From the NCBI RefSeq assembly GCF_030296675.1, contig NZ_AP027736.1:2170001-2234000 (forward strand): a stretch of 64,000 nucleotides of DNA, in the 5' to 3' direction. Shown piece after piece: positions 22,326 to 60,383 of the stretch. How positions within the stretch are numbered: position 1 is the stretch's first letter; the number at the start of each line of letters is the position of its first letter. Made by a program: the position numbers and the translations under genes. The notes beneath the pieces were generated by a model that had not been told where the DNA came from, did no database searches, and saw only the letters and a program-made list of their open reading frames with translations. This DNA comes from Demequina sediminis. Lineage in GTDB: Bacteria; Actinomycetota; Actinomycetes; Actinomycetales; Demequinaceae.

Positions 22326-22368
22326 GGCAAGGGGACGATGCGCGGCCCGCGAGGCATCGTCCCTTGCC
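22326..22368. repeat. Hairpin built from two inverted GGGGACGATGC copies
   Basis: GGCAAGGGGACGATGC (22326-22341) pairs with GCATCGTCCCTTGCC (22354-22368), one base bulged. It lies after the lipoprotein stop and could act as a terminator, but there is no T tract. It contains two copies of the dispersed motif. Confidence 0.7.
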
Positions 22369-22472
22369 AAGGTGCGTTGCACCCTTCGACGGGTCCGCGC
22401 TCAGGCGCCCCGCCGCCGGAGGTACCGGCGGCCGCGACAGGGCCCGCTGGAGAGCAGGGGAGGGACAGCATC

Positions 22473-22712
22473 ATGGCACTCGGTTCCGGCATCTTCTTGA
22501 TTGTCATCGGCGCGATTGCGGCCTTCGCGGTGCGCGACTCTGTCGACGCGGTGGACCTCACGATGATCGGCTACATCTGCATGGCCGCAGGTGTGGTGGC
22601 GATCATCGTGTCGCTCATCGCGAACCAGCAGCGCAGCAACACGACTCACCGCGAGATTCGCGACGAGCACGTCGACCAGCACCGCATCGACGATCGCCGC
22701 ACGGACGTATAG
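22473..22712 (+). CDS. Small two-TM protein (DUF6458-like)
   Basis: ATG 22473 with AGGGA upstream opens 79 residues: two membrane helices (GIFLIVIGAIAAFAV and IGYICMAAGVVAIIVSLIA), then a charged His/Arg/Asp-rich tail (HREIRDEHVDQHRIDDRR). This matches the layout of small actinobacterial DUF6458 proteins; function unknown. Confidence 0.75.
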   Translation: MALGSGIFLIVIGAIAAFAVRDSVDAVDLTMIGYICMAAGVVAIIVSLIANQQRSNTTHREIRDEHVDQHRIDDRRTDV

Positions 22713-22812
22713 CGCCCACAGCCTCGCGGCCGCTCGACGCGCGCCGCGAGGCTGACGGACGTAGCCTGGCCGCGTTGGACAGGCACGGCTCACTCACCTT
22801 GAGGGAGAAACG

Positions 22813-23265
22813 ATGGCGACGGTCGCGAGTTACTTCAACTTCGACGGCACGTGCGAGGAGGCCTTTGCCCTCTATCGCGATGTCCTGGGTGGGGAGTTCG
22901 ACGGCCCGCCCATGTACATGCGAGACATGCCGGTCGAACCCGGTCAGCCGCCCCTTCCCGAGGAGGAAGGCGGGCGCGTGATGCACATGGCGCTCACGCT
23001 GCCCGGGGGACACCAGCTGATGGGGACGGACATCGTGCCGTCGATGGGGATGACATTGACGCGCGGCAACGCGATGTACGTGACCCTTACCCTCGACGAC
23101 GAGGATGCGCTGCGCGAGATCTTCGCGAAGCTCTCCGAGGGTGGTGTCGTCACCGCCGAGCCGACTCCCATGTTCTGGGGCGACCTCTACACGGACTTCT
23201 TCGACCGCTACGGCATTCAGTGGATGCTCCTCGCGCCGCTCACGGAGGGCCAAGGGCTGGCGTAG
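22813..23265 (+). CDS. VOC/PhnB-like protein
   Basis: The 150 residues start YFNFDGTCEEAFALYRDVLG and end in FGDRYG-like FFDRYGIQWML, the hallmarks of PhnB-type glyoxalase-fold proteins. AGGGAGAAACG precedes the ATG. The substrate is unknown. Confidence 0.85.
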   Translation: MATVASYFNFDGTCEEAFALYRDVLGGEFDGPPMYMRDMPVEPGQPPLPEEEGGRVMHMALTLPGGHQLMGTDIVPSMGMTLTRGNAMYVTLTLDDEDALREIFAKLSEGGVVTAEPTPMFWGDLYTDFFDRYGIQWMLLAPLTEGQGLA

Positions 23266-23422
23266 AGCCCGCGCCGCGCTGTCTCGCGGCTCCGCCACAC
23301 AAGCCACCCCGGCATCGGCCCTCAGCGGCCTCCGCGGGCGTGACACGCCGACGACACGCCGGGACCCGTGTGGCGGAGCCGCGAATCCGTGTGGCGGAGC
23401 CGCAGCACTCCAGACGCAGCGG

Positions 23423-24763: not shown

Positions 24764-24776
24764 GCGTCCTTTCCCA

Positions 24777-24797
24777 TACTTTGCGAGACGCAAAGTA
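24777..24797. promoter_or_regulatory. Perfect inverted repeat, likely operator of the MFS gene
   Basis: TACTTTGCG-AGA-CGCAAAGTA, 9-bp arms, lies 13 bases before ATG 24763. It fits a dimeric repressor of MarR, PadR or HxlR type. Confidence 0.7.
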
Positions 24798-24882
24798 ATC
24801 CGACACCTCTAGGGTACGCCCGGGCCGCATCGTCACTGGCTGAATCGTGACTGCGCTCGCGGCGAGGTGCCTCGCGGAGGGA

Positions 24883-25431: not shown

Positions 25432-25639
25432 GGCGCCGACCAGGGCAAGGGGAATTCGCGTCTGCAGGCCGCCATCCTACGAGGGGCGACGGGCGGGGCT
25501 TGGGAGGGGACGATGCCTGGCGTACCCTGGTCCGAGCGCGCCACGAGGGTTGGCGTCGAGGAGGCAGGGTGGAGCTTTAGGGTCGCCGGACGTCACGTCT
25601 GGCCACGGTCATCGCACCTTCCAGACCCTCGGAGCACCC

Positions 25640-27254: not shown

Positions 27255-27355
27255 GTCCCCAGCCTTCTGGCGTGGACAACGGGCCCGTGCGGGGTGAGCA
27301 TGACAGGGCGGGACCGCGACCGTGGCCCGGGGCATCGTCCCGCTAGCCTGGCCGC

Positions 27356-28818: not shown

Positions 28819-28862
28819 GGCCCCAGGCTACGGCCGCCGTGTGCGGCTGTCGGGCGTGCCGG

Positions 28863-30188
28863 TCAGACGCGACCGAATCCCTCGGTGTCCTCGGCGAACT
28901 CCGCCGCGACGTCCTCGGACACCGTCGCGCGGGTGGCGGCGATCGCGGCCAGGTAGTCGCCCGTGGTGGGGCCTACGCCCGCGGTGGGGCCCGTGCCCGC
29001 GCCGCCACCCGCATCGTCCCCGTGCCCGGCAATCCCCGTGCGCACGGCCGCCTCGAGCGCGGCCTGGCTGGCCCTCCGCGCGGCGAACTCGATGTCCGCG
29101 GGGGTGAAGCCCTCGCTCGCGTGGACCAGCGCGTCGCTGTCGACGGCCGATGCGGCGGCAGGAGGGATGAAGCGCGTCCAGATCGCGCGGCGAGCCTCGG
29201 CGTCGGGGAGGCCGATGGGGATGACGTAGTCGAAGCGGCCGTGGCGCAGGAATGCGCTGTCGAGAGAGCGGATGAAGTTGGTCGCACACACGAGGAGGCG
29301 GTCGGGGCGCTCGCGGAACGCGGGGATGATCTTGAGCAGCTCGTTGGTGACGCCCTGCAGCGGAGACGGCGGGTCGCCGCGGCGGTGCGAGGCGATCTCC
29401 TCGACCTCGTCGATGAGGACAACCGCGTGCTCGAGCTCCGCGATGCGGTGGAACGTGTCCCTGAGGGCTCCCGCGAGTCCGGCCGGGTCCGCCGCGAGCC
29501 GCGACGGGAAGACCTCGACGAAGGACCACTCGAGGCGCGACGCGATGGCCTTCGCGAACGTGGTCTTGCCGGTGCCGGGCGGGCCGAACATGACGACCGC
29601 GCGCGGCGGGGCGACCCCATAGCGCTCGGCGAGGGAGGGCTCCGCGAGTGGCAGAACCAGACGCTTCTCGATGAGGTCCTTCTCGCGACGCATGCCCGCG
29701 ACGCCGTCCCACAGCCCGCGCGGGAGCACGCGGCCGCCCAGTTCGGCGAGCAGTGCCATCTCCGCGCGCTGCACGGGCAGGCGGCGCTCAAGGTAGCGCA
29801 CCGCCTTCTTCTCCGCGAAGCCCGCGTCGCGGAACGCCTCGAGGTGGGTCTGCGCGGTGGGCACCAGGGCGGACAGGGTGGTGGGTCCGGCATGGGCGAC
29901 CCGCGTCTCGAGGGCGGCGAGCAGGGCAGGGCCCACGCCCTGGCCGTGCCAGGAATCGTCCACCCCGTGGAACACCACCCAGGCCTGGTTGTGTGCGCGC
30001 CTGCCGACGGCCGCGCCCACGATCTGGTCTCCCACGGCGGCGACCACCGCGATGTCCTCCGACGCGGAGGTGAGGACCTCCGCGAGTGCGTAGACCGGCT
30101 CGATGCCGGCGGCGCGCGAGCGCTCCCAGAGCCGCACGATCCCCTCGAGGTCGTGGGCGTGGGCGTCTCGGACTCGCCACGTGGACAT
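28863..30188 (-). CDS. GNAT acetyltransferase fused to AAA+ ATPase
   Basis: ATG 30188 starts a 441-residue protein. Residues 1-140 are a GNAT domain (VRDAHAHDLEGIVRLWE; acetyl-CoA loop DSWHGQGVGPALL). Residues about 160-400 are an AAA+ module with Walker A GPPGTGKTT, Walker B VVLIDEVEE, sensor LLVCATNF and arginine-finger region HGRFDYVIP, close to the FtsH/p97 group. The frame extends upstream but that part is the antisense of the esterase gene. The joint role may be protein acetylation linked to remodelling; unproven. Confidence 0.85.
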   Translation of the reverse strand: MSTWRVRDAHAHDLEGIVRLWERSRAAGIEPVYALAEVLTSASEDIAVVAAVGDQIVGAAVGRRAHNQAWVVFHGVDDSWHGQGVGPALLAALETRVAHAGPTTLSALVPTAQTHLEAFRDAGFAEKKAVRYLERRLPVQRAEMALLAELGGRVLPRGLWDGVAGMRREKDLIEKRLVLPLAEPSLAERYGVAPPRAVVMFGPPGTGKTTFAKAIASRLEWSFVEVFPSRLAADPAGLAGALRDTFHRIAELEHAVVLIDEVEEIASHRRGDPPSPLQGVTNELLKIIPAFRERPDRLLVCATNFIRSLDSAFLRHGRFDYVIPIGLPDAEARRAIWTRFIPPAAASAVDSDALVHASEGFTPADIEFAARRASQAALEAAVRTGIAGHGDDAGGGAGTGPTAGVGPTTGDYLAAIAATRATVSEDVAAEFAEDTEGFGRV

Positions 30189-30452
30189 GGTTGCCTCCCT
30201 CGTACGTCGGCGTGCGGGGTGTGATCGAAGATACCCCAGGGGGTATGCGGCGCCTAGGGGTCGTGGTCGCGGGGGTGCAGGTTGTGCGGGAGCGCCGACA
30301 GGTTGTGCGGACGCGCTCCCCCGAGGCACGGGGTGTCGGTTGGCTGGGGTCAGGTCGAGCATCGGCCTGCCAATGGAGTCAGGCCAGGGCCGTCGCGCCC
30401 CCGATCGTGAGTGTGCGCCAACGGAGGCGCACGCCGTGGAAGGAACAATCTG

Positions 30453-32384
30453 ATGGAGACCACCGCGGCCCACCGCCGCACCCTTGCCCGCCGCGCCACG
30501 TGGCTTGCGACCCTGTCGCTCGCCTCCGCCCTTGTCGGAGCGGGCGCGGCGTCGGCCGAGCCCGTACCCTCGCCCCTGGGCGCGACCGTCACCAAGACCG
30601 ACACCGCCCCGACGGGATACGAGGTCACGTTCCGCGTGGAGTCCGACTCCGCACACGTGTACCTGCTCGGCGACACCTACTTCACTCAGCCCGACATGCT
30701 GGGCGGGGCGGAGACCTTCTTCAGCCACGAGGGTCGCACCGGCGACGAGTGGCGCGAGGGCGACATCTCGCATCCGCTCTTCACCAACGTGCCCGCCGAG
30801 CTCACGGAGGTGTCCGAGGGGCTCTTCGAGATCACGATGGCGCTGCCGGCGGGCGCCTTCAGCTACGGGTTCGCGCACACCGACGAGCCGTGCACGATGG
30901 GCTTCTCGTGCGCCGCGACGCCCGACCCCACCAACCCTCCGGTCTTCGCTGACGCGACCGGGGCATCGTCCCAGGCGCTGTCCCAGGTCTTCGTCCCCTC
31001 TCACCCCTCGTTCCCGACCTACGACGCCGACGCCCAGGGTCACCCCGTCGACGGCACCCTGGAACACGTGCTGTTCACCGACGCGGGGGAGATCTCGCCC
31101 GCGGGCGACAACCAGCTGGGCGTGTACCTGCCTCCCGGATACGACCCCGAGCGGGCCGAGCCCTATCAGCTGCTCGTGCTCTCGCACGGCGCATACGACA
31201 ACGAGACGTCGTGGTTCAGCCAGGGGCGCGCGGCGAACATCGTCGAGCACGCGATCGACACCGGCGCGATCGAGGACACCGTGGTGGTGACCACCAACTT
31301 CTACAACTTCGACTCCGGCTCGACGGAGGAGGGCACTACCCTCTATGCCGCCTACGCCGAGGCGCTGCGCACCGTGGTATTGCCGATGGTCGAGGACGCG
31401 TATCACGTGTCGACCGAGCGGGCCGATCGCGCCTTCGGCGGACTGTCGATGGGCGGCGGCATCTCGACGCACCTGCTTCAGCATGATGCCGACCTGTTCG
31501 GCTACTTCGGGATCTGGTCGGGGGCACAACTGGGCCTGGGCGACATCTCGGCCGACGAGCTGGCCAACCTCGACAGCGCGCTCGGCATTCACGTGGGCGC
31601 GGGCGAGCAGGACTACCTCGCGGGGATCGGCGAGGGCTCCGCGCAGCGCGCGCTCGCGTATCGCCAACTCGGGCTGCGCGTCGACGAGCACTCGATGGAC
31701 GGCGGACACACCTTCCAGGTGTGGCGCACGATGCTCCACGACTACCTCGAGAACGTGGCCTTCGCGGACGTTCCCGCGCATGAGCCCGCGACGCTCCTCA
31801 CCGACATCTCGCCGGTGATCGACGATGCACGCCACACCGAGTTCTTTACCGAGATCTCGTGGCTCGCGGAGCAGGGGATCACTCGTGGGTGGGAGACCGA
31901 CGGCGGCCGGGAGTTCCGTCCGCTGGGCACGATCACGCGTGACGCCATGGCCGCGTTCCTCTACCGGCTCGCGGGGTCGCCCGAGTGGGAGGCTCCCGCG
32001 GCCTCTCCCTTCATCGACGTGACGCCGTCGACCACCGAGTTCTACGCCGAGATCACGTGGCTCGCGGATCAGCAGATCACGCTCGGGTGGGAGACTGCGG
32101 CGGGTCAGGAGTATCGGCCGCTCGCGCCCATCACCCGGGACGCAATCGCGGCGTTCCTCTACCGGTTCGCCGCACCGGCGGGGTACGAGGCCCCCGCCGA
32201 GTCCGCGTTCGTGGACGTCGCGCCGGGTTCGACGGAGTTCTACACGGAGATCGCGTGGCTCGCCGAGTCGGGTATCTCGACGGGGTGGGTCGAGGGTGAC
32301 GCCGCGGAATTCCGGCCGCGCTCCGCGACCACGCGTGACGCGATGGCGGCCTTCCTGTTCCGCCTGACCGGCCTCGCCGGCTAG
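30453..32384 (+). CDS. Secreted esterase with three SLH-type repeats
   Basis: The 643-residue protein has a signal peptide (to about ASAEP), an N-terminal beta domain, then an alpha/beta-hydrolase core of the CE1/enterochelin-esterase type: YLPPGYDPE, nucleophile GGLSMGGG and a late His in DGGHTFQVW. Three C-terminal repeats of about 60 residues (EISWLAEQGITRGW; FRPLGTITRDAMAAFLYR) are SLH domains that bind it to the cell wall. It probably trims acyl groups from polysaccharide. Confidence 0.85.
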   Translation: METTAAHRRTLARRATWLATLSLASALVGAGAASAEPVPSPLGATVTKTDTAPTGYEVTFRVESDSAHVYLLGDTYFTQPDMLGGAETFFSHEGRTGDEWREGDISHPLFTNVPAELTEVSEGLFEITMALPAGAFSYGFAHTDEPCTMGFSCAATPDPTNPPVFADATGASSQALSQVFVPSHPSFPTYDADAQGHPVDGTLEHVLFTDAGEISPAGDNQLGVYLPPGYDPERAEPYQLLVLSHGAYDNETSWFSQGRAANIVEHAIDTGAIEDTVVVTTNFYNFDSGSTEEGTTLYAAYAEALRTVVLPMVEDAYHVSTERADRAFGGLSMGGGISTHLLQHDADLFGYFGIWSGAQLGLGDISADELANLDSALGIHVGAGEQDYLAGIGEGSAQRALAYRQLGLRVDEHSMDGGHTFQVWRTMLHDYLENVAFADVPAHEPATLLTDISPVIDDARHTEFFTEISWLAEQGITRGWETDGGREFRPLGTITRDAMAAFLYRLAGSPEWEAPAASPFIDVTPSTTEFYAEITWLADQQITLGWETAAGQEYRPLAPITRDAIAAFLYRFAAPAGYEAPAESAFVDVAPGSTEFYTEIAWLAESGISTGWVEGDAAEFRPRSATTRDAMAAFLFRLTGLAG

Positions 32385-34767: not shown

Positions 34768-35278
34768 ATGGATGCCGCAACGTCGCTCGATCCCGCCCAC
34801 GAGGGCCGCGTACTCGTGATCGACGGGCGGGACGTGTTGCGATTCGAGCGCGACCTTACCGCGCCGCCCACACGCGTGTGGAGCGCGCTCACCTCGCCGG
34901 AGGACACCGGGCGGTGGTCGTACCGCGCGACCTTCGAGGGGCGGGCGGGCGGGCGGCACGGTGACGTTCGACTACGGCGAGGCTGGCACGGCGACGGGGG
35001 TCGTGACGGCCTGGGAGGAACCCGTCGCCCTCGCGTACGAGTGGGGAGAGGGGACGATGCCGTGGCGGGTACGGATGACCCTCGCCCCCGCGGGGGACGG
35101 CACGCGGCTGACCTTCGATCACCTCGCACCTGACCCGCACCATCCGGACTACGCCGCCGGGTGGCACTGGCACCTCGATCGCCTTGCTCAGGTCATCGCG
35201 GGCGACGAGCCGGCACGCGTCGACTCGGACGCCCACTTCGAGGAGCTGCAGCGGCTCTACGCGCGCGCCGAGGGCTGA
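34768..35278 (+). CDS. SRPBCC/AHSA1 protein (one-base shift in this sequence)
   Basis: ATG 34768 starts FERDLTAPPTRVWSALTSPE; the frame is lost in the GGGC-rich stretch near 34938-34957 and the fold resumes as VTFDYGEAGTATGVVTAWEE to the stop at 35278. Here removing one base (not adding) rejoins the halves. About 169 residues when joined. It converges with the histidine kinase with 22 bases overlap. Confidence 0.75.
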
Positions 35279-36663
35279 CGCGGGAACGTCAGCGTCACCG
35301 TCGTGCCCCGGCCCTGTGCGGAGTCGACGTCGAGCGTTCCCCCGTGGACCGACACGATCGCCGCGGTGATCGCAAGTCCGAGCCCCGCCCCACCCGTGGC
35401 GCGGGTGCGCGAGTGGTCGCCGCGCACGAACCTCTCGGTCGCGCGCGCCGCCATCTCGGGCGACATCCCCGGGCCGTCGTCGCTCACCGCGATCCTGGCC
35501 ACGGCATCGTCCCCGCTGACGGCGACCCTGACGGCCGAGCCGCCGTGGACGGCCGCATTGGTCACGACGTTGATGACCGCCTGCCGCAGGCGGTCGGGGT
35601 CGCCCATGACGATGATGGGCGCGGCGGCGTCGAGCGCAAAGCTCACGCCCTCGCGCGCCGCGGTCGCGTCGCCGAGGACCTCGGCGCACAACGCGCTGAG
35701 GTCCACCTCGATCGGCGACATCTGCGGCTCGGCGTCGTACTTCGCGAGCTCGAGCAGGTCCTCGACCAGGCGGCGCATGCGGCCAGCCTCCGCCTCGGTA
35801 CGACGCCATGCGTCCGCGATGTCCTCGTCACGCGTGAGCGCGCCGCGCCGATACAGCTCGGCGTAGCCGAGCACCGTGGTGAGCGGCGTGCGCAGCTCGT
35901 GCGAGGCATCGGCGACGAACTCACGGAGGCGCGCCTCGGAGCGCTCGCGTTCCTCGAGGGCGTCCGTGAGCGTCGAGATCATGGTGTTGAGCGAGGTCGC
36001 GAGCGCCGCGGACTCCGAGCCGCGGCCCGCGCCCTCGAGGCGCACGTCGAGGTCGCCGCCCGCGATGCGGGCCGAGGCGTCGACCATGCGGCGCATCGGC
36101 GTGATGCCCAGCCTGATCACCCAGCCGCCCACCGCCGCGAGACCGCCGATCACGATCACGAGCCCGACGGCCTCGATCAGCATGAGGCGCTGCGTCGTGG
36201 CCTCCACGGAGTCGAGCGAGAGGGCGGTGATGTCCGTACCGAAACTCGTGGCCTTCGCGAGGACGCGGTAGCCGGGGCCCTCGCCGTCCGACGCCGGCAC
36301 CGTGAGGAAGACCGAGCCGGACGTGGGCAGGTCGCCGGCCGTGAGCACGGGGACCGTGCCATCCGCGCCGTCGACATTCGGGGAGAAGAACACCTGCAGC
36401 GAGCCCGACGAGTCGACGACCCCGCGCAGCACGTCCGAGGGGCGCGAGACGTCGGGGTCCGTGTCGCCGTCGCTGAGCCGGGGCTCGTGGCGCGTCGTGT
36501 CGACGGGGCCCGAGGAGGACGCGAGGCGCTCGTCGAGCTGTTCGACCAGGTATGAGTGCGTCACCGCGGTGACGAACGCGGCCACCATGATGACCGCGGC
36601 GGCGATGCCCGCCAGCCCCACCATGAGTCGTGCCCGCAGACTGAGTCCCTCGGGTCGGGTCAC
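35257..36663 (-). CDS. Sensor histidine kinase
   Basis: The 468 residues have two membrane helices (about 12-35 and 168-190) around an outer sensor domain, a HAMP linker, the H box DASHELRTPLTTVLGY, the N box NVVTNAAVHGG, and G boxes DDGPGM and GGAGLGLAIT. It pairs with the regulator upstream; ATG and stop overlap by 4 bases. Confidence 0.95.
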   Translation of the reverse strand: MTRPEGLSLRARLMVGLAGIAAAVIMVAAFVTAVTHSYLVEQLDERLASSSGPVDTTRHEPRLSDGDTDPDVSRPSDVLRGVVDSSGSLQVFFSPNVDGADGTVPVLTAGDLPTSGSVFLTVPASDGEGPGYRVLAKATSFGTDITALSLDSVEATTQRLMLIEAVGLVIVIGGLAAVGGWVIRLGITPMRRMVDASARIAGGDLDVRLEGAGRGSESAALATSLNTMISTLTDALEERERSEARLREFVADASHELRTPLTTVLGYAELYRRGALTRDEDIADAWRRTEAEAGRMRRLVEDLLELAKYDAEPQMSPIEVDLSALCAEVLGDATAAREGVSFALDAAAPIIVMGDPDRLRQAVINVVTNAAVHGGSAVRVAVSGDDAVARIAVSDDGPGMSPEMAARATERFVRGDHSRTRATGGAGLGLAITAAIVSVHGGTLDVDSAQGRGTTVTLTFPRQPSARA

Positions 36664-37343: not shown

Positions 37344-37578
37344 GACCCCAGTATCGCGGGCCATCCTCACGATTTGCTGGGAGCGCACGGAGAGCACGCT
37401 CGGGGCGGCATCTTCGGGAGGTGCGCGGTGGCGGCGCGAGCTGACCTCGAGGGACGAGGCTCCGATCCCAGGTGACTCCACTTCTGCTCCCAGCCCTCTC
37501 ACAGCCGGCGCGGGTTACATCGAGGTGAACAAGCGGCCCGGCGGTCTCGCCCGGCGCCCCCGAAATCGAGAGGTGCCC

Positions 37579-38247
37579 ATGCCCGTCTATGCCTTCATCG
37601 CCGCCGACCTGGTCGCGATCGCCATCCTTGTGTTCGGCCTCTACTTCCCCCGCCACCGCCGTCGCGACATGATCGTGGCGCTGCTGTCGATCAACGTGGG
37701 CGTCATGGGCGTCACGTATGCGATGACCAACGCGGAGATCTCGCTCGGCTTCGGTCTGGGGATCTTCGCGGTGCTGTCGATCATCCGCCTGCGCTCGACC
37801 GAGATGGACCATGCGGAGATCGCGTACTACTTCACCGCGATCGCGCTGGGCCTGCTGGGCGGCTTCCCCGCGATCAGCCCGTCGGTGAGCCTCACGCTCA
37901 TGGCCGTGCTGCTCGCCGTGATCCTCGTGGGCGATCACCCTTCCCTGTTCCGCCGCACGCGTCACCAGCAGATGGTGCTCGACCGCGCCCTTCCCCTCGA
38001 GGAGGAGGCGCGCCGCCACCTCGCGGCCTTGCTCGGCGCGGAGATTCACCGCGTCACGCTGCGCAAGGTCGACATGGTCGAGGAGACCACGCTGGTGGAC
38101 GTCCGCTACTCGCTCGTCGCCCCCGCGCGCTCGGGGGACGATGCCGGGCACGTCACCGCGCACGCTCCCACGGTCGAGACGGTCCCCGTGCCGATGCGCA
38201 CCACGGCGCCCGTGACCGTTGCCCCCGCAGCCGAGGCCTCGCGATGA
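37579..38247 (+). CDS. DUF4956 membrane protein
   Basis: The 222 residues have four to five N-terminal membrane helices and the DUF4956 core SLGFGLGIFAVLSIIRLRST, then a soluble domain. It overlaps the VTC gene by 4 bases. DUF4956, VTC and Cthe_2159-type proteins are a known gene neighbourhood. Confidence 0.9.
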   Translation: MPVYAFIAADLVAIAILVFGLYFPRHRRRDMIVALLSINVGVMGVTYAMTNAEISLGFGLGIFAVLSIIRLRSTEMDHAEIAYYFTAIALGLLGGFPAISPSVSLTLMAVLLAVILVGDHPSLFRRTRHQQMVLDRALPLEEEARRHLAALLGAEIHRVTLRKVDMVEETTLVDVRYSLVAPARSGDDAGHVTAHAPTVETVPVPMRTTAPVTVAPAAEASR

Positions 38248-39023: not shown

Positions 39024-40841
39024 ATGCGCAAGCCCACCCTCCTGTTCGCCGGCCTCCTCACCGGCACGCTGTTTTTGGCCGGCTGCACCTCCGCCGAGCC
39101 CACCGAGGTCACGGCCACCGGCTCGGACGAGGCCGTGGTCTCGACGGACACGACCGACTCCGGCGACACCGCCACGACCGTCGCCGCGTCGACCGACGTC
39201 CTGACCGAGGTCACGTATGCCGAGCTGGGCGTCAAGGAGGTCGATCTCGCCGTCGACGAATCCGCCGCCGTCGACATCACGCTGTCGGACTCGGGCTCCA
39301 CGGGCGGCGATGGGGTGACCGTCGACGGGTCGACCGTCACCATCACCGCGGGCGGCGTCTATCGGCTCTCGGGCACCCTCTCCGAGGGGCGCGTGGTGGT
39401 CGCGACCGCCGACGAGGACGTCACGCTGATTCTCGACGGAGTCGACATCACGTCGCCCGACACCGCCGCGCTGGACATCGAGGGCGCCGACGAGGCGATC
39501 GTGTGGCTCGCCGCCGGGTCGACGAACACGCTCTCCGATGCGGCCGACGCGACCGTGGCCACGGAGGACGCCGAGGACTCCGCGTCGACGGACACCCCGA
39601 ACGCGACGCTGTACTCGACCGCGAACCTCTGGATCGCGGGCGACGGAGCGCTCGTGGTCAACGGCGTGGCCGCGGACGGCATCACGTCGAAGGACGGCCT
39701 GGTCATCGCCGGAGGTGACCTCACCGTCACCGCCGCGGACGACGGCATTCGAGGCAAGGACCACCTGGTGATCTCGGCAGGGGCCGTCACCGTCGAGGCG
39801 GGCGGCGACGGGCTGCGCTCCGACAACGAGGACGTGGCCAACGAGGATGGCGAGGCGCTGGGCGTCGTGTGGATCGACGGCGGCACGATCGACGTGACCG
39901 CCGGGGTCGACGCGATCGACGCGTATCGCCAGGTCGCGATCGAGGGCGGCGCGCTCGCTCTCGCCGCCGAGGACGATGGCATCACCACCGAGGGTGTCCT
40001 GCACGTGTCGGACGGCACGGTGGACATCTCGGCGTCCTACGAGGGCCTCGAGGGAGGAGTGATCCGCCTCACGGGAGGTGAGGGGAGCATCGTCGCGAGC
40101 GACGACGGCATCAACGTCAATGGCGGCACGGACGCCGCGGCGGGAGCCGGCGGAGGAACGATGCCCGGCGGTGGCACGCGGCCCGGCCGCACCCAGGACG
40201 ATGCGGCCACCGGGGACGCGGCCGCCGACAGCACGACGACAGACGGTGCGGCCACGAGTGACGCGGCCACCGTCGCGACGACAGACGGCGCCACCGACGC
40301 CACCACCGTCGCGATGGGACCAGGAGGAGGCATGGAGCAGGCCGCGGAGGGACGCTACCTCGAGATCACCGGCGGCACGTGGGTGATCGACGCCGACGGC
40401 GACGGGCTCGACTCGAACGGCACCGCGACCATGACGGGCGGCACGGTGGTGGTGAGTGGTCCGACCAACAACGGCAACGGCGCAATCGACGTCAACGGCA
40501 CATTCGAGATCACGGGCGGCTCGCTCGTGGCGGCAGGCTCGGCCGGGATGCTGGTGTCGCCCACCGCGACCGGCGACCAGGGAGTGCTCACCGTGAGCTT
40601 CGCCTCCGCGATCGCCGAGGGCACCGTGATCACGGTCTCGGACTCGGATGGCGACCACGTTGCGTCCTTCACGACCTCGAAGATCTCTCAGGCGGTCGTG
40701 TTGTCCGTCCCCGGCCTGGTGTCGGGCGAGGAGTACACGATCAGCACGGGCGCAAGCGTCGACGGCGAGGAGGTGAGCGGACTCGTCGTGGGAGGCAGCG
40801 CGACCGGCGGCGACGAGCTCGGCTCGCTCGCGGCCGACTGA
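39024..40841 (+). CDS. Cthe_2159-like carbohydrate-binding lipoprotein
   Basis: The 605-residue protein has lipobox FLAGCTS (Cys about 20), then a beta-solenoid of repeated strands (TVTITAGGVYRLSGTL, DGIRGKDHLVISAG, GVLHVSDGTVDISASYEG), as in the Cthe_2159 polygalacturonate-binding family. A Thr/Ala-rich low-complexity insert lies around residues 385-430. It is third in the DUF4956-VTC operon and acts at the cell surface. Confidence 0.85.
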   Translation: MRKPTLLFAGLLTGTLFLAGCTSAEPTEVTATGSDEAVVSTDTTDSGDTATTVAASTDVLTEVTYAELGVKEVDLAVDESAAVDITLSDSGSTGGDGVTVDGSTVTITAGGVYRLSGTLSEGRVVVATADEDVTLILDGVDITSPDTAALDIEGADEAIVWLAAGSTNTLSDAADATVATEDAEDSASTDTPNATLYSTANLWIAGDGALVVNGVAADGITSKDGLVIAGGDLTVTAADDGIRGKDHLVISAGAVTVEAGGDGLRSDNEDVANEDGEALGVVWIDGGTIDVTAGVDAIDAYRQVAIEGGALALAAEDDGITTEGVLHVSDGTVDISASYEGLEGGVIRLTGGEGSIVASDDGINVNGGTDAAAGAGGGTMPGGGTRPGRTQDDAATGDAAADSTTTDGAATSDAATVATTDGATDATTVAMGPGGGMEQAAEGRYLEITGGTWVIDADGDGLDSNGTATMTGGTVVVSGPTNNGNGAIDVNGTFEITGGSLVAAGSAGMLVSPTATGDQGVLTVSFASAIAEGTVITVSDSDGDHVASFTTSKISQAVVLSVPGLVSGEEYTISTGASVDGEEVSGLVVGGSATGGDELGSLAAD

Positions 40842-44708: not shown

Positions 44709-45448
44709 GACGCCCTCCGGGTGGCGAGGGCGAGGAAGGCCGCCTCGGCATCGTCCGTTCCCGTGCTCGCGAGGATGTGGGCGAGCGTGCCGTCCGCGAG
44801 GATTTTCCCGTCCCTGATGAAGACCAGCCGGTCGCAGCGCACGGCCTCGTCCATGACGTGGCTCGACACCAGGATGGTGGTGCCCGCGTGCGCGAATCGC
44901 CTCAACAGCGCCCACAGCTCGTTGCGGATCGCGGGATCGAGCCCCACGGTCGGCTCGTCGAGGATGAGAACCTCGGGGCGTCCCACGAGGGCCGCGGCGA
45001 GCGAGGCGCGTGTGAGCTGGCCCCCGGACAGCGTGCCCGCGAGTTGGTCGGTCTGATCCGCGAGGCCCACCGCGTGGATCGTGTGGGTGACCGTCTCAGG
45101 CGGCGCGTCGACGAGCGACGCGAAGTACGCGACGTTCTCGCGCACCGTGAGGTCGGGATAGATCGATGGCGCCTGGGTCACGTAGCCGACGAGCGCGCGG
45201 ACCGGGGCGCTGCCCGCCGCGTGGCCCGCGACGGTCACGGTGCCGCCCTGCGTGATCTGCGCGCCCACGATCGCGCGGATCAGCGTGGACTTGCCGGCGC
45301 CCGAGGGCCCCAGCAGGCCGACGATCGACCCACGGGGGATCTCGAGGCTGAGGTCGTGAAGGACTTCCCTGCCGCCGCGCACCACGCGCAGGCGGTCGAC
45401 CACGATGACGGGCGCCTCGGCGCTCTTATTCTCCATTTGATGAATCAT
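44705..45448 (-). CDS. ABC transporter ATPase
   Basis: ATG 45448 (or 45436) gives about 247 residues with GPSGAGKST, LSGGQLTRASLA and LILDEPTVGLD, and the switch His in LVSSHVMDEA. In operon with the TetR regulator upstream and the permease downstream. Confidence 0.95.
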   Translation of the reverse strand: MIHQMENKSAEAPVIVVDRLRVVRGGREVLHDLSLEIPRGSIVGLLGPSGAGKSTLIRAIVGAQITQGGTVTVAGHAAGSAPVRALVGYVTQAPSIYPDLTVRENVAYFASLVDAPPETVTHTIHAVGLADQTDQLAGTLSGGQLTRASLAAALVGRPEVLILDEPTVGLDPAIRNELWALLRRFAHAGTTILVSSHVMDEAVRCDRLVFIRDGKILADGTLAHILASTGTDDAEAAFLALATRRAS

Positions 45449-45468: not shown

Positions 45469-46068
45469 TCAACCGGAGAGGTCCCCGTCGAGGTAGCGCT
45501 GGAGCGTGGGGGCGTACAGGGCGGAGAGCGTGTCGCGGCTCGCGGTGGCCAGCGGCGGCACCTCGAGCACGTAGCGTCCGAGTGCGAGTCCGGTGAGCTG
45601 TGTCGCGCACGCCGCGGCGCGCTCGGGTGCGCGGTCCTCGCGCACGAGCCGCAGGACCAGGTCTCGCATCATGACCCCCGCCATGGCCGCGCCCACCTCA
45701 TGGGTCGACACCGCCGACGCGAGGACCGCGCGCATGCGCGCGCCCGTGACGGGGTCCTCCCACAGGTCGAGGGCGAGCCGGAGCAGGCCGTCGCCCAGGC
45801 GTTCTCGGGGAAGCGCGAGGAGCGCGACCACGCGCTCGTCATTCTCGGCGAGCGGCCTCATCACCTCGACGAAGAGGTCCGACTTGGCGGGGAAGTAGTG
45901 GCGCACGAGGGCGGGGTCGACGCCCGCGGTGCGGGCGATCTCGCGCACGGACGATGCCGCGTAGCCCTTCTCTCCGAAGACCCGGGTGGCGGCGGCCACG
46001 ATGTCTCCGCGCGTGTCTGAGTCACCTCCGCGCGGACCGCGGCTGCGCGCCCTCTCCTGCGGGGTCAT
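45469..46068 (-). CDS. TetR-family regulator
   Basis: ATG 46068 overlaps the preceding stop (ATGA). The 199 residues have IVAAATRVFGEKGYAASSVR and REIARTAGVDPALVRHYFPA, the TetR helix-turn-helix. It probably represses the ABC exporter downstream. Confidence 0.92.
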   Translation of the reverse strand: MTPQERARSRGPRGGDSDTRGDIVAAATRVFGEKGYAASSVREIARTAGVDPALVRHYFPAKSDLFVEVMRPLAENDERVVALLALPRERLGDGLLRLALDLWEDPVTGARMRAVLASAVSTHEVGAAMAGVMMRDLVLRLVREDRAPERAAACATQLTGLALGRYVLEVPPLATASRDTLSALYAPTLQRYLDGDLSG

Positions 46069-47325
46069 AGGCCGAGCGCGGCGACCAGCGCGAGCGCGGC
46101 ATCGGACGGGCCGACCGCCTCGAAGTAGGCGGCGTCGTGCGTCCACATCACGCGCGTCTGGCCGTCTCCCGTGCGCTCGGCGCGCTCGCCCACGACCGTG
46201 CCCGCGACGACCGCCTCGGCGAGCTCGGCGTCCGGGCCGGCCTCACGGACCAGGGCGTCGTGAGCGTCGGCGGCGTGATAGAGCTGGCGCGCCTCGAGCG
46301 TGACCTCCGAGGCTCCGTCGCTGTACGTGAGCGTGTGGTGTTCCGCGACGCGGCCGGGCAGGGCATCGTCAAGCAGCGGATCGTTGGTCACGACCGCCAC
46401 GAGGGCCCATGTGCCGGCCGTGGTCGGCAGCGCCGCAAGGAACGCGGTCGGGTCCTCGGGGGTGATGGGCTCGACCGCCGTGCCGGCGGGCGCCGAGATG
46501 ACGCGCTGTTCCGGCAGCGTGATCGCCTCGGGGCGCAGCACCCCCACCACAGCGCGGTCGCGATCCCTCCCAGGATCAGCAGCCCGATGACGATGAGCGG
46601 CCACGCGCGTCCTGGCCTGCGTCCGGGGACGGGTCCCTCGCCGCGCCCGCCGGAGCCGGAGTCGCCGCCAGCGGCCTGCGTCGTCGGCTCGTCGGGCGGG
46701 GGGACGATGCCGCGGTCGCCCGGCGCGAGGGCGACGCCGCCGGCGATGCCGCGGGGGCATCGTCCGTTCCCCCCATCACCGGGGCGAACGCGGTGGGCAC
46801 GACGCGCGGGCGGTACAGCGGCGCGTCCCCGCTCGGCAGGCGCGTGATGGTCGGGGCCTCGGCGGCCGGTCGGGCGGTGGCGAACGTGGGCACAAAGGCG
46901 GGTGCGTCGTCCTCGAGAGCGAAACCAAGATGCGCGGCCGTGGCCAGATCTGACGCGTCTCTTGACGCGACGCGTGGCACGCCGCCGAGCGGAGTGGGGG
47001 CGCCTGCCGCCGACAGCGCCGCGTTGGTCGCCGCCGCCGCGCCCAGCCGGTCGAACGGGCGCAGGGGTGCGCTCGGGGTCGCGGGGGCCGCATCGTGGGA
47101 GGCGGCCTCGAAGGGCGAGCGTGGCTCGGGCAGCACCTCGTGTGCGGGGGGACCGGGGTTGGGGGCGGTGAGGTCGTCGTCCACGTCGATCTCGATGGGC
47201 TCGGGTCGCGGCTCGGCCCGGTGTGCGCGCGGCGCCGCCGGCTTGGAGGGCGCCACCGCCTCGCGGGGCGCGCCCAGGGAGGGAGAGTGCTCGGATGTCG
47301 CGTCGCCCGCTTGCTCGGCCGTCAT
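46065..47325 (-). CDS. Single-TM protein with long disordered N-terminus, two frameshifts
   Basis: ATG 47325 opens an Ala/Pro-rich disordered region of about 190 residues. The frame must shift once near 46750, giving PPDEPTTQAAGGDSGSGG and a membrane helix WPLIVIGLLILGGIATALWW, and again at the C run 46541-46545, giving LRPEAITLPEQRVISAP and a soluble domain to 46065. Each shift is repaired by one added base. About 419 residues; function unknown. Confidence 0.65.
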
Positions 47326-49497: not shown

Positions 49498-50411
49498 ATG
49501 CCGACCGCCGCTCAGAATCTCGCGAGTGCCGATCCCGCGACGGACACTGCCCGGGTCGCCGCGGTCCGCGAGTGGTTCCGTGACGCCGGCCGCGACCTGC
49601 CGTGGCGCGGGGGCACCACGCCCTGGGGTGTGCTGGTCAGCGAGATCATGCTGCAGCAGACTCCGGTGGTGCGCGTCGAGCCCGTATGGCGCGAGTGGAT
49701 GGCCCGCTGGCCCACTCCCGGCGACCTCGCGGCGGCCTCACAGGCCGATGCCGTGCGCGCGTGGGGGCGGCTGGGATACCCGCGCCGCGCCAAGCGGCTG
49801 TGGGAGTGCGCGGCCGCGATCGCCGAGCGTCACGGCGGGCAGGTGCCGTCCGACCCGGTCGCGTTGCGCGACCTGCCAGGGGTCGGGGACTACACCGCGG
49901 GCGCGGTGATGGCATTCGCCTTTGGTCGCCGGGCGCTGGTGCTCGACACCAACGTGCGGCGCGTCATCGGGCGGGCGTGGCGCGGCGAGGCACTCCCTCC
50001 CGCTCATCAGACCGCCGCCGAACGCACGCATGCGGCGGCGCTCGTGCCCGAGGGCGACGCGGCCGCGGCGGAGTGGGCGGCCGCATCCATGGAACTGGGC
50101 GCGCTCGTGTGCACGGCGCGCGTCGCGCGGTGCGACGAGTGCCCGCTCGCGCGGTCGTGCGCGTGGCTCGCCGCGGGCCGCCCCGGACTCGCCGAGGCGC
50201 CTCGCCGCACCCAGCCGTGGCACGGCACCGACCGCCAGGTCAGGGGAGGATCCTCGCCCTCTTGCGGGTGGCATCGTCCCCCGTCAACGTCACCGGACAC
50301 GCCACGCTCGAGGACGTCGAACCGGGTCAGCTCGACCGCTGCCTCGAGGGGCTTGTCGCGGACGGGCTGGTGCGAGCCGTGTCGAGCGAGCGGGGCACGT
50401 ACGAGCTGTGA
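49498..50411 (+). CDS. mutY: A/G-specific adenine glycosylase, one-base frameshift
   Basis: MutY removes A opposite 8-oxoG. ATG 49498 gives RDLPWRGGTTPWGVLVSEIMLQQ motifs in pieces (VSEIMLQQTPVVRV), helix-hairpin-helix LPGVGDYTAGAVM, catalytic VLDTNVRRV and the FeS ligands C-x6-C-x2-C-x5-C (CTARVARCDECPLARSC). A missing G at 50243-50246 breaks the C-terminal part; restored it reads RILALLRVASSPV to 50411, about 304 residues. Confidence 0.93.
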
Positions 50412-51542: not shown

Positions 51543-54064
<2,522 letters not shown>

Positions 54065-54247
54065 GTCAGCCTCCCTTGTTTCGTCCGGCCGGAGCCGGGA
54101 TCGCGGCGGATCGCCACCGCGGGTGTTTCCAGGCTAACCGCGGGCCCCCACCGCTCATGCCCGTGTTCGCCAGAGGCGTGAAGCGATTGCGAGGGGACGA
54201 TGCGGGCGGTGGGCACGGCGCGGGTCGGGCCGAGGCGCAGGAGGGGG

Positions 54248-54301
54248 TTGACATATCGATGATCGATACATATCGTTTCTCGATAGCAACGACTATCGAT
54301 A
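54248..54301 (+). promoter_or_regulatory. Promoter with ATCGAT operator array
   Basis: TTGACA (54248-54253), 17-base spacer and TATCGT (54271-54276) form a near-consensus promoter. TATCGAT or ATCGATA half-sites occur at 54254, 54262, 54280 and 54294, overlapping and following it. The downstream XRE protein is the likely ligand. Confidence 0.8.
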
Positions 54302-54312
54302 AGGAGCAGATC

Positions 54313-54921
54313 ATGACCGATGCACGCGACCTTGACCGGCCCGACAGGGCAGGGATGTACCTCTCGATTGCTGTGGTCACGCTTGCGGCGGTGCTCGCCA
54401 TCGTGACTGCCGTGCGCAGGCTCGTCGAGGTGGGGGACGGCACCAATGTGCCGGTGACCGTGCCACTCACCGGCGAAACCGCGGCACTGCCTCTTGGACC
54501 CGACGGCGCCGCGCTCGAGGCGACCGTCGAGACCGCGACGGTCATCGTGCCCGACCCTGCCCCGGCCACGCTCTTTGCCCTCTACGCCGAGCCGGTGTGG
54601 ATCGCGCTCATGGTGGTCGCAGGAGTGGTCTTTGCCGCGATGTTCTTCCTGCGTCTCGCGCGCGGCCTCGCCTTTGAACGCGGCACGTCGCGGCTGGTGT
54701 ACGTCGCCGCGGGCGTGCTCCTCGCGGGCTGGTTTGTGGGCTCGATCCTCACCAACATGACCGTGCATGGGGCACTCTCCGCGGTGAGCGACTACACGTA
54801 TGACTCCGTCAGTTTCGAGGTGAGCCTGCTGCCCTTCTTCGTCTACCTCGTCGTCGGGGCGTTCGCGGCCGCGCTGCAGATCGGGGAGCGGCTCCAGCGG
54901 GACACCGAGGGGCTCGTGTGA
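54313..54921 (+). CDS. DUF2975-like four-TM membrane protein
   Basis: ATG 54313 with AAGGAG upstream gives 202 residues with four membrane helices (about 18-38, 92-112, 128-150, 170-190), in the DUF2975 layout. The stop overlaps the start of the XRE gene. DUF2975-XRE pairs are common; function unknown. Confidence 0.8.
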   Translation: MTDARDLDRPDRAGMYLSIAVVTLAAVLAIVTAVRRLVEVGDGTNVPVTVPLTGETAALPLGPDGAALEATVETATVIVPDPAPATLFALYAEPVWIALMVVAGVVFAAMFFLRLARGLAFERGTSRLVYVAAGVLLAGWFVGSILTNMTVHGALSAVSDYTYDSVSFEVSLLPFFVYLVVGAFAAALQIGERLQRDTEGLV

Positions 54922-57072: not shown

Positions 57073-57088
57073 GCCCTTCCGCGGGGCG

Positions 57089-57868: not shown

Positions 57869-57897
57869 CTCCGGTGTGGGGGAAACCGGAACCTACG

Positions 57898-58323
57898 CTA
57901 ACGCAGGGGAAGCACCTGGAGCCCCTCGGCACGACCGGCGGTCGCGAGCCGGCGGTCCCATGCGACGAACACCGGCGAGGCGTCGGCGAATTCGAGAGCG
58001 CTCGCGAGGTGGAGCGCGTCTCCCGCTCGCAGCGGGCGGCGATCGCACAGGTCCGCGGCGCGCTCGGCGATGCGCGCGGTCACCTCGAGCTTGGCGATGC
58101 CGGGCCAGAGCTCGGCCCATCGCTCACGGGCCTGCGCGGCGGGGGCGGCGTCGATCCTGCCGATTCGCTCGGCCGAGGCCAACACCGAGCGCACCTCGGC
58201 GTCCGCGATGCGCGAGGTCACCAGCGCATCGGCGCCGCTCCACAGCGCGACCGCGAGATCGCTGCCCGTCTCGAGGACGCACAACTTGAGCAGCGCGGAC
58301 GTGTCCAGATAGACGAGAGACAT
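57898..58323 (-). CDS. PIN-domain toxin (VapC-like)
   Basis: The 141 residues show the PIN acidic set: LDTSALLK (Asp7), ADAEVRSVL (Glu43), RAGDALHLA and VAWDRRL. PIN toxins cut RNA. It follows its antitoxin gene by 3 bases. Confidence 0.88.
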   Translation of the reverse strand: MSLVYLDTSALLKLCVLETGSDLAVALWSGADALVTSRIADAEVRSVLASAERIGRIDAAPAAQARERWAELWPGIAKLEVTARIAERAADLCDRRPLRAGDALHLASALEFADASPVFVAWDRRLATAGRAEGLQVLPLR

Positions 58324-58326
58324 GCC

Positions 58327-58587
58327 CTACCTACGCAGGCGTCCGAGCAGGCTGGACAGCGCGTCCTTGGCCGCCTCGGCCTGAGGCAGGCGCGGTACCG
58401 CGCGGTCGTCCGCGGGAAGGGCCAGCACGCCCTCCTCGGCGAGCCGGGACAGCAGGGACATCGACTCGACGGGGCCGATCTTCGCGACGGGCAGTCCGTC
58501 CTCGGTGAGGATGACGTCCTCGCCGTCGCGGGCGGCGGACAGCGCCGCATCCAGGCGGCCCGCCAGTTCGCTCACGGGGATTTCCAC
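58327..58587 (-). CDS. Phd/YefM-type antitoxin
   Basis: GTG 58587 gives 86 residues: VEIPVSELAGRLDAALSAA and VILTEDGLPVAKIGP, the Phd/YefM DNA-binding half, then a tail that would bind the PIN toxin. First gene of the toxin-antitoxin pair. Confidence 0.8.
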   Translation of the reverse strand: MEIPVSELAGRLDAALSAARDGEDVILTEDGLPVAKIGPVESMSLLSRLAEEGVLALPADDRAVPRLPQAEAAKDALSSLLGRLRR

Positions 58588-58637
58588 AGAGCCACCGTAC
58601 CCCGGCGGCGGAGCAAACCCGTGGAGCGCGCGAACGG

Positions 58638-59789
58638 CTACGGCAGGTCGCCGCCGTCGGCGGCGCACCCCTTGCCCATCAGCAGGCCCTTCATCGTGGG
58701 GCCCGGCTTGGGCGGCCGGTCGGCCGAGAAGCCGTCCGCGTTCACGATCAGCTCCTGCGCGGCGGCCACGGGCCCGCCCTCGGTGGGCACGGTGAGGATG
58801 GTCGACGGGTCGACCGCCCGCTTGAGCACGGCGAGCGCGATCGGGCCCAGTTCGTGGTGGCGCGCCACGGATGTCACGCGGCCCACGATCGGGGCCGGAG
58901 CCCCTGCCGTGGCAGTGCCGTGCACGGGTGCCCCGGGCTCGGGAAGCTCGTGGCCAGACCCGTCGAGGTGAAGCATGGTGAGTCGCCGCGGCGGCCGGCC
59001 CACGTTGTGGACCTTCGCGACCGTCTCCTGACCTCGATAGCAACCCTTGTGGAGGTGCACGGCGGTCCGCAGCCAGTCGAGCTCGTGCGGCAGGGAGGTC
59101 TCGTCGATCTCGCGTCCCGCGCGGGGACGATGCGCGGCGATCCTGATCGCCTCGGTCGCCCAGGTGCCCACGAGCGTCCAGCCGGCGTCGAGTCGCGACT
59201 GGATCTCGCGATCGAGAGTGTCGCGCTGGACGAGCACGAGCCGCCATGCGCGGGCCGCTCCGGGGTGGTCGGTCGGGGACGCCGCATAGGTGGTGCCTCC
59301 CGCCGTCACGCCCGGCCAGGGATCCACCCACGTGACGGGCTCGCCGTCGGCGGCCGGTCGCGACACCGCCTCGCCGATCGCCGCCCAGTCCGCGGTGACG
59401 TCCGCCACCTCGACGCGCAGCATGAAGCGCATGCGGTCGAGGAAGGCGGCGAGCGCGGGCGCGGTCTCGGACAGGAGCCACGCGGTCGAGCCGTCGTCCA
59501 CGAGCCCCGCGACGTGCTCGATGCGTCCCTGAGGGGACAGGATCATGAGCTCGGACGACTCGCCGGGAGCGAGCGATCCGACGGCCTGCGTGCACAGCGA
59601 GTCGAGCCACGTGAGCCGGTCGGGTCCCGTGACCGTCACGACGCCCAGGTGGGACTGGTCGGCGACCGCGCGGCCGGCCTCGAGGGCGCGCTGTTCGGCC
59701 GTGGGATCGCCGTAGTGCCACGCGATACCCGCGTCGGCGCCGTCGCCGGGAACCGCGCCGTGGCGCGACAGAAGAGGTGAGGCGGTCAT
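58638..59789 (-). CDS. ygfZ: YgfZ/GcvT family folate-binding protein
   Basis: YgfZ helps assemble or repair certain FeS proteins. ATG 59789 gives 383 residues with the signature KGCYRGQETVAK and the GcvT fold. It is in a leftward group with the nitrobindin-like gene. Confidence 0.92.
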   Translation of the reverse strand: MTASPLLSRHGAVPGDGADAGIAWHYGDPTAEQRALEAGRAVADQSHLGVVTVTGPDRLTWLDSLCTQAVGSLAPGESSELMILSPQGRIEHVAGLVDDGSTAWLLSETAPALAAFLDRMRFMLRVEVADVTADWAAIGEAVSRPAADGEPVTWVDPWPGVTAGGTTYAASPTDHPGAARAWRLVLVQRDTLDREIQSRLDAGWTLVGTWATEAIRIAAHRPRAGREIDETSLPHELDWLRTAVHLHKGCYRGQETVAKVHNVGRPPRRLTMLHLDGSGHELPEPGAPVHGTATAGAPAPIVGRVTSVARHHELGPIALAVLKRAVDPSTILTVPTEGGPVAAAQELIVNADGFSADRPPKPGPTMKGLLMGKGCAADGGDLP

Positions 59790-59814
59790 GCCGGGAGAAC
59801 GCGCGGGCGACCGG

Positions 59815-60383
59815 TCACGATTCCTGAACCTCGGCATCGTCCCCCGTGCCAGGCGCGTCGACGCGCGACAGGCGAGCGCTTGCGTACGACTGCAGCTCGT
59901 GACCGAAGGCCGCGAGGTCCCACGCCCACATGAGTTCGCCGCCCACATTGCCGTACATGCGGGTTGCGCCGCGCACGTCGGGTCCGGACTCGGTGGCCGC
60001 CGCGAAGCGGGTCGCGAGGTCGATGCGGCCGTTGCCCACGGCACCGAAGTACGCGGTGAGCAGGCCCGAGGCGTCCGCGAGCACCACCTCGAGCGGGTGC
60101 TGGAAGTCCTCGAGCTCGACACCCTCGGGGGCCGACGGCGCGACGCGCCAGAATCCCGACTCGGTGGACCAGACCTGGCCCTCCTCGCCATCGGGACCCA
60201 TGAGGGTGAGCGTCGAGGTGTAGCTCAGGTAGGGGCCGCCGTCGTGATCGAAGACCACGCGCTGGCGGAAGTCGGCGGTGTCGATCCCGGGATACTCCAG
60301 GACGCCGTGGCCCTCCCAGACGCCCACGACCCATGCGAGGGGTAGACCTCGGGTGCGAGGTCGGTCGGAATGACGAAGGTCAC
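59815..60383 (-). CDS. Nitrobindin-like (FABP-fold) heme protein, one-base frameshift
   Basis: GTG 60383 opens with TFVIPTDLAPEVYP; an extra base in the run 60339-60342 joins this to LAWVVGVWEGHGVLEYPG, the family GxWxGxG motif. The rest is a beta barrel ending RLSRVDAPG. About 190 residues. Bacterial members bind heme and nitric oxide. The start overlaps the stop of the small gene at 60380-60490. Confidence 0.85.

Follow-up and report, generated by a model that had tools for sequence, protein, structure and literature searches.

Why should an 11-bp word recur on both strands of a bacterial chromosome far beyond chance? The question is raised by a 64,000-nucleotide stretch of the Demequina sediminis genome (bases 2,170,001–2,234,000 of its single contig; hereafter, the window), in which copies of the 11-mer GGGGACGATGC are dispersed to the right of an element of lower G+C content. 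An earlier note on this DNA had offered four roles for the word: a Chi-like site, an uptake-like signal, a chromosome segregation signal, or a methylation target. The uptake-like role fits, since the word shows no strand bias, has clade dialects, lies in genes as well as in gaps, forms inverted pairs, stays at background level in the element, and occurs in a genome carrying competence and pilus genes. The Chi-like and segregation roles do not fit the strand counts and the distribution between replication origin (ori) and terminus (ter), and a methylation target alone would not account for the excess. We propose, with a probability of about 0.72, that the word works like a DNA uptake sequence (DUS), that is, a mark of self DNA. 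We infer the uptake bias, the existence of a receptor, and any transformation in Demequina, and we therefore do not file the word as a member of the DUS or of the uptake signal sequences (USS).

The whole genome (2.7 Mb) contains 283 exact copies of GGGGACGATGC, 142 forward and 141 reverse, against three copies of the reversed word (one and two by strand). As the reversed word contains TAG, which is hard on coding DNA, this control inflates the apparent excess, and we therefore relied on Markov and synonymous-codon controls. In a sample of 443,722 bases, composed of 20 stretches of 20 kb and positions 20279–64000 of the window, 46 copies were observed for 0.73 expected under a third-order Markov model. 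Under the same model, the core GACGATGC was found 276 times (51 expected), the 9-mer GGACGATGC 174 times (12.4 expected), and GGGACGATGCC 64 times (0.93 expected). The spacing is thus one 9-mer per 2.5 kb and one 11-mer per 9.6 kb. When k-mers were ranked in the 43.7 kb of chromosome in the window alone, the result was uninformative, rare A+T-rich words coming out on top; the 444-kb sample resolved this. Within the window, 18 places match the 11-mer with at most one mismatch, compared with 3.8 (standard deviation 1.9, maximum 9) in 100 dinucleotide shuffles. The seven plus-strand and four minus-strand exact copies listed by the earlier note and its three ten-base copies are all real (table 1), and the very strong excess that it claimed was, if anything, understated. 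Hundreds to thousands of copies far above chance are what uptake sequences show.

The 11-mer described in the note is over-represented but is not the natural unit. It is the most conspicuous part of a graded motif, approximately GGG-GACGATGC-S-nn-GG, whose core is strict and whose flanks are lax. Single changes at bases 1–3 of the 11-mer leave 4–28 copies per variant and those at base 4 leave 0–5. Changes within the core ACGATGC leave 0–3, except for A5 to C (nine copies), which is a step toward another dialect, GGCCGATGC. The base after the core shows a weak preference for C or G, and the fourth and fifth bases after it show one for G. At distances of 10–30 bp, GGACGATGC forms nine pairs (five inverted, four direct), whereas 500 random placings gave on average 0.69 inverted and 0.69 direct pairs (largest draw five for each kind). 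When the five inverted pairs were folded as hairpins, z was below −3 for four and −0.96 for the remaining one. One inverted pair of the window, 22331/22354, lies 3' of a predicted gene and has a predicted fold of −30.2 kcal/mol (z −4.3).

Pairs and short tandems of this kind might also be relics of a small repeat family carrying the word, of the repetitive extragenic palindromic (REP) or miniature inverted-repeat transposable element (MITE) type, and the genome does contain another repeat, GTGTGGCGGAGCC. Yet an alignment of 41 sites (30 forward sites and the 11 of the window) revealed little in common outside the word except weak preferences for G. Copies are also found within genes, and some of the aligned relatives depart from them by single-base differences. 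The flank alignment makes such an origin very unlikely, and it was dropped. The GTGTGGCGGAGCC repeat itself looks like an extragenic repeat family. An 11-mer with this core is present in 40 copies in 444 kb for 0.4 expected; the copies are clustered and partly tandem (L032, L042–L044), and the window has two plus-strand copies and one minus-strand copy of GTGTGGCGGAGC.

Could the word be a by-product of codons, codon pairs, or base composition? Some frames are indeed common at this G+C content. We shuffled synonymous codons in 463 genes predicted by a simple gene finder of our own (84.5% coverage), the genes of the element being excluded. Within genes, GGACGATGC occurs 124 times versus 24.5 in the shuffles (standard deviation 4.4, maximum 36 in 100 shuffles) and the 11-mer 28 times versus 2.8 (maximum 7). 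The core GACGATGC exceeds the shuffles in five of the six frame-and-direction classes, the sixth having zero copies. The rise is from 1.5 to 33 in opposite frame 0, from 15.5 to 78 in same frame 0, and proportionally smallest in opposite frame 1, where the shuffles already yield 37 of the 52 copies. In genes, 103 copies of the core run along the direction of the gene and 94 opposite to it. The density of GGACGATGC in gaps (48 copies in 63.6 kb) is more than twice that in genes (124 in 380.8 kb), and other Demequina genomes near 70% G+C lack the word. A by-product of coding or composition is hence rejected by the synonymous-codon shuffle and deserves hardly any credence. The note's observation that copies lie in gaps and in genes of both directions holds, and the codon pair in a single frame that it had considered as an explanation is not found. 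A higher density in gaps, together with close inverted pairs able to form terminator-like hairpins, is a trait of uptake sequences.

The distribution of the word among relatives is informative. The RadA encoded in the window is 87–93% identical to that of 13 Demequina records, 12 of which group with it in a RadA tree with full support. Among 47 genomes of the family Demequinaceae, GGGGACGATGC (the A word) reaches 149–467 copies in 16 and 2–26 in the other 31 (reversed control 0–7). A second word, GGCCGATGC (the B word), is present in 584–2,018 copies in 19 of the 47 genomes (reversed control 44–111). Eighteen of these lie outside the A-word set and one, G018, is rich in both; D. sediminis itself has 394 copies. 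Stretches were sampled from four A-poor genomes, and GGCCGATGC forms ranked among the leading words in all but one, G004. The sampled stretches of the word-poor Demequina G004, G026, and G034 yielded no clear word specific to them. Finer differences also exist: the base after GACGATGC is preferentially C in D. sediminis and G in the flanks of its relatives, and GGGACGATGCC has 341 copies in D. sediminis and 17–78 in 13 of the 14 named A-word relatives, phytophila having 165. In this tree, 13 rows with the A word (D. sediminis and 12 named relatives) make up one clade, and D. salsinemoris has it separately; the B word extends over 14 rows. The three dialect labels require six changes, compared with a mean of 16.8 for shuffled labels. 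The labels were assigned on loci no longer than 21 kb with thresholds that we set, three rows being near the B threshold; L077 and L097, which are incomplete, were excluded. Dialects that follow phylogeny around a common core, here CGATGC, are characteristic of uptake sequences.

Individual sites could be followed through alignments, and at some orthologous positions the word changes with the dialect. At 59123, D. sediminis and eight of the nine aligned relatives of the main A clade have GGGGACGATGCG, and iriomotensis has one change. At this place the B-dialect species D. aestuarii has GCGGCCGATGCG and D. salsinemoris has neither word. At the place orthologous to 50271, D. aurantiaca, also of the B dialect, has GGCGCCGATGCC. 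Identity among aligned sequences is 0.76 inside the word, 0.67–0.71 in its immediate flanks, and 0.80 on regional average. The picture is one of turnover plus some old sites.

Strand symmetry, a chromosome-wide spread, and differences between clades would likewise be expected of a footprint of modification or repair. In such a scheme, a methyltransferase site is enriched by biased short-patch repair, or the word is an iterated one of the highly iterated palindrome (HIP1) kind. However, the word is non-palindromic, and its lax-strict-lax motif, inverted pairs, and excess in gaps would be unexpected. On these sequence features, we consider this explanation improbable.

The element at 1–20278 is phage- or plasmid-like and mobile-looking as judged from its sequence. 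Ten of its frames were searched and seven had no match; its DnaB-like helicase is split across two frames (3689–4645 and 4642–5433). According to the earlier note, the element has no copy of the word. This is true for the 11-mer, but not for GGACGATGC, which occurs once, at 7083, compared with 0.5 copies expected from the composition of the element and 8–9 at host density.

For the replication strands, we used dnaA at 2,073,757 and the turn of the GC skew near 0.72 Mb, leaving out the stretch of the presumed terminus and the element. The leading strand carries 76 of the 167 sites and the lagging strand 91, which is not different from an equal split (P = 0.28), and a 75% leading-strand bias is rejected (P about 5 × 10−16). 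No ori-to-ter trend was seen across the 20 stretches of 20 kb, which hold 3–15 sites each (mean 7.7, variance 10.5). The tests against replichore and against density near ori or ter suggested by the earlier note thus reveal neither bias nor trend. Uptake sequences are, as here, equal on both strands and independent of the directions of replication and transcription.

These counts bear on two further explanations. A Chi-like site would regulate a host recombination nuclease (of the type of AdnAB, RecBCD, or AddAB) so that self DNA is spared or recombined. Such a site would be frequent, chromosome-wide, and at background level in a mobile-looking element, and species-specific Chi words are known. 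Chi words and the FtsK-orienting polar sequences (KOPS), although short, frequent, and chromosome-wide like the Demequina word, are biased to the leading strand, and the Demequina word is not. The strong ori-to-ter polarity of KOPS is not seen either. Both readings were dropped on the strand counts. For Chi, a longer graded motif, close inverted pairs, and a change of dialect between sister clades are also unexpected, and we regard a Chi-like role as having only a slim chance. The site of a chromosome-organizing protein (a nucleoid occlusion, domain, or segregation factor) would agree with a chromosome-wide, non-palindromic word at background level in the element. It would not agree with the lack of an ori-to-ter trend and of polarity, with the turnover of sites, or with the dialect change, and it appears a little less probable still. 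A matS- or parS-like site in particular was dropped, as the word is confined neither to ter nor to ori.

If the word is an uptake sequence, the cell should have competence machinery, and at the gene level it does. A comEA-like gene, with HHH_3 and SLBB domains over the Pfam cut-offs (comE models below the NCBIfam cut-offs), is located together with comEC (PF03772 over cut-off) at about 422–425 kb, and dprA is at 1,161 kb. A type IVa pilus operon at about 694–706 kb encodes PilB, PilT, PilC, a type IV pilin (PilA), the prepilin peptidase PilD, and PilM. The genome also has lower-scoring T2SSF matches of the tight adherence (Tad) type, this class being called by score.

We envisage the following mechanism. 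A surface receptor of the competence apparatus (a type IVa or Tad pilin, or ComEA) would preferentially bind duplex DNA bearing the motif. Retraction of the pilus and import by ComEA and ComEC would bring the DNA into the cell, where recombination would replace the homologous stretch. The word would build up by this biased transformation, since word-bearing alleles are proposed to enter more often, wherever it is compatible with protein and RNA function. A new dialect would begin when the receptor changes.

Several observations weigh against this proposal. ComEC and PilB of D. sediminis are each encoded in two overlapping frames (L034, 2916–5197; L211, 12401–14085), reflecting either sequencing indels (completeness 93%) or real loss; a near-complete ComEC domain is found in a single match in 41 of the 47 family genomes. 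comEC is present in 46 of the 47, and each of the 38 genomes tested for T2SSF has a high-scoring PilC-like match. The machinery is also present in the word-poor genomes G004, G026, G034, G037, and G043 (G026 with PilC-like T2SSF matches only, the others with more). Because comEC and PilC-like T2SSF occur in genomes rich in the word or not, the machinery does not predict the word, and across the family genomes the word did not correlate with the presence of a pilus or of comEC; word-poor genomes with machinery are compatible with unspecific competence there. Pilin genes are present, none of them being tied to the word as a receptor. The change of word at orthologous positions is blurred: the A-dialect T00192 and D. 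subtropica also have GCCGATGC at 50271, and the genes of D. sediminis show some excess of GGCCGATGC (61 versus 22.5 in synonymous shuffles). Conservation is modest, GGACGATGC being intact in 28 of 80 aligned cases compared with 274 of 1,082 for permuted 9-mers, and several sites of the window are private to D. sediminis. Five 5-kb bins of the sample are below 62% G+C, with three copies. Four of them are the element (one copy) and the fifth (L038), outside it, has two copies, which is the host rate, so that the scarcity in acquired DNA is that of one element. No clear U run follows the hairpins of the inverted pairs examined, which makes them only candidate terminators. The density of the word is below that of the meningococcal DUS, spaced at roughly 1.15 kb according to a passage of PMC2397512. 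Finally, no uptake or transformation data for Demequina were found in the literature searched.

Table 1. Copies of the word and the lower-G+C element in the window (position 1 is its first base)
Feature	Position	Strand	Context	Aligned relatives
Lower-G+C element (61% vs. 72%)	1–20278		DnaB-like helicase and DUF2637 frames	
Exact word	22331–22341	+	Intergenic; left arm of inverted pair	
Ten-base copy (AGGGACGATGC on minus)	22354–22364	−	Right arm of inverted pair with 22331	
Exact word	25506–25516	+	Intergenic	
Ten-base copy	27332–27342	−	Intergenic	
Exact word	29011–29021	−	Within predicted gene 28863–30188 (−)	
Ten-base copy	30963–30973	−	Within predicted gene 30411–32384 (+)	
Exact word	35050–35060	+	Within predicted gene 34961–35278 (+)	
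Exact word	35504–35514	−	Within predicted gene 35257–36624 (−)	
Exact word	38134–38144	+	Within predicted gene 37525–38247 (+)	In 0/9
GGACGATGC	40196–40204	+	Genic	
GGACGATGC	44748–44756	−	Genic	
GGACGATGC	45949–45957	+	Genic	Retained in 4/10
Exact word	46700–46710	+	Within gene 46576–47325 (−)	
GGACGATGC	46757–46765	−	Inverted relative to 46702 at 55 bp	
Exact word	50271–50281	−		D. aurantiaca (B dialect) GCCGATGCC
GGACGATGC	52941–52949	−	Genic	GGACGACGC in 11/19 (synonymous Asp change in this frame)
Exact word	54193–54203	+	Within gene 54157–54921 (+)	
Exact word	59123–59133	+	Within gene 58638–59789 (−)	D. aestuarii GGCCGATGCG
Exact word	59834–59844	−	Within gene 59815–60327 (−)	
GGACGATGC	63938–63946	−	Intergenic	

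Among known systems, the closest likeness is with the DUS of Neisseriaceae. In the passages of PMC3630211 and PMC2397512 devoted to them, these are words of 10–12 bases, present in hundreds to thousands of copies with clade dialects sharing a core. They share with the Demequina word the close inverted pairs, described in Neisseria as terminators (PMC2397512), and a type IV pilus and ComEC route, for which Demequina has the genes. The DUS are also few in acquired DNA; the Demequina word is at background level in one element and at the host rate in the other low-G+C bin. In contrast, Demequina are monoderm, high-G+C Actinomycetota with another word at a lower density and no ComP-like receptor assigned. 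The USS of Pasteurellaceae is likewise a short chromosome-wide word with dialects, whose build-up is explained, in the passages of PMC7811141 and PMC5031613 concerned, by molecular drive, for which a fitness benefit is not needed. Its sequence, AAGTGCGGT (PMC5031613), has no relation to the Demequina word. Within Actinomycetota, Micrococcus luteus is transformed in a Flp/Tad-dependent manner with comEA/comEC and Tad genes as in Demequina (passages of PMC4322843 and PMC6370729); Demequina additionally has the type IVa pilus operon. The term "uptake sequence" is absent from PMC4322843, and the DUS passage of PMC6370729 concerns Neisseria. According to the passages on uptake specificity in PMC7811141 and PMC5031613, the species that show it belong to two families, Pasteurellaceae and Neisseriaceae. 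No report of uptake sequences in Actinomycetota was found in the literature searched, preprints and most subscription journals being outside its scope. Since these papers place specificity in two families, a Gram-positive case extending over several families would be new.

Is Demequinaceae the only family of Actinomycetales with such words? Others were first noticed in flanking loci of Phycicoccus and Ornithinimicrobium. Among 297 genomes of the order, GGTATGCCG stands out in a single family of 23 genomes (f17), 13 of which have 112–1,210 copies with balanced strands (e.g., 616/594) and ten 4–30; no genome outside f17 exceeds 61. By RadA, f17 groups with Phycicoccus, Ornithinimicrobium, and, with weaker support, Austwickia, that is, Dermatophilaceae in a wide sense. 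G220, sampled in five 20-kb stretches, has 86 copies of GTATGCCG for 3.4 expected, 43 on each strand. The word is CGTATGCCGCTG in G278, with 23 copies of GTATGCCGCT for 0.06, and CGAAGGGG in G257, with 109 copies for 12; no clear word was seen in the sampled stretches of G168. GTATGCCG, CGTATGCCGCTG, and CGAAGGGG are thus words of different genera in one family (L216–L223, L256–L265). Because the T2SSF matches of the 23 f17 genomes are only lower-scoring and Tad-like among the matches listed, the reader there, if these words serve uptake, could be part of a Tad pilus or ComEA, as in the Flp-dependent transformation of M. luteus (PMC4322843).

A second family, f19 (including G100; L249, L251–L255), groups with Microbacterium (Microbacteriaceae) by RadA. 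Its word, CGGATGCCTC, has 25–1,390 copies in all 22 genomes, with 271–1,390 in the six of genus g23 (strands balanced, 712/678) and 0–19 in nine genomes of other families. A point against is that CGGATGCC, the Microbacteriaceae word, shows no excess in two named Microbacterium loci of 21 kb each, so that the word is not common to the whole family. Microbacterium sp. Root53 (L111) has GGTATGAG five times in 21 kb for 0.2 expected, possibly another word. We also surveyed one stretch of at most 20 kb from each of 20 genomes of 18 families (five were shorter, one of these being all N). The only convincing new lead was in f19, a signal in f8 corresponding to an apparent repeated protein motif. The negatives of this survey are weak, because 20 kb reveals only strong words and the B-dialect control L141 was itself within noise. 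ATGC is common to five of the six main words. The G278 word CGTATGCCGCTG resembles the Neisseria DUS, given as ATGCCGTCTGAA in a passage of PMC5031613, in having ATGCCG and then CTG. The common ATGC and this likeness hint that recognition has the same physical basis in these systems, or they are due to chance.

A wider reading, which we hold somewhat more likely than not, is that self-specific uptake arose more than once within the Gram-positive order Actinomycetales. Three families or more would have their own words, read by a Tad or type IVa pilus and ComEA, as borders between sister clades: GGGACGATGC or GGCCGATGC in Demequinaceae, GGTATGCCG, CGTATGCCGCTG, and CGAAGGGG in Dermatophilaceae, and CGGATGCCTC in Microbacteriaceae. 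If this is true, self-marks evolve often, and these families would offer natural replicates for distinguishing a benefit to the cell from drive alone. Many soil and marine Actinomycetales would be predicted to be naturally transformable by DNA carrying the right word, and the words would provide a sequence-based map of the borders of gene exchange within genera.

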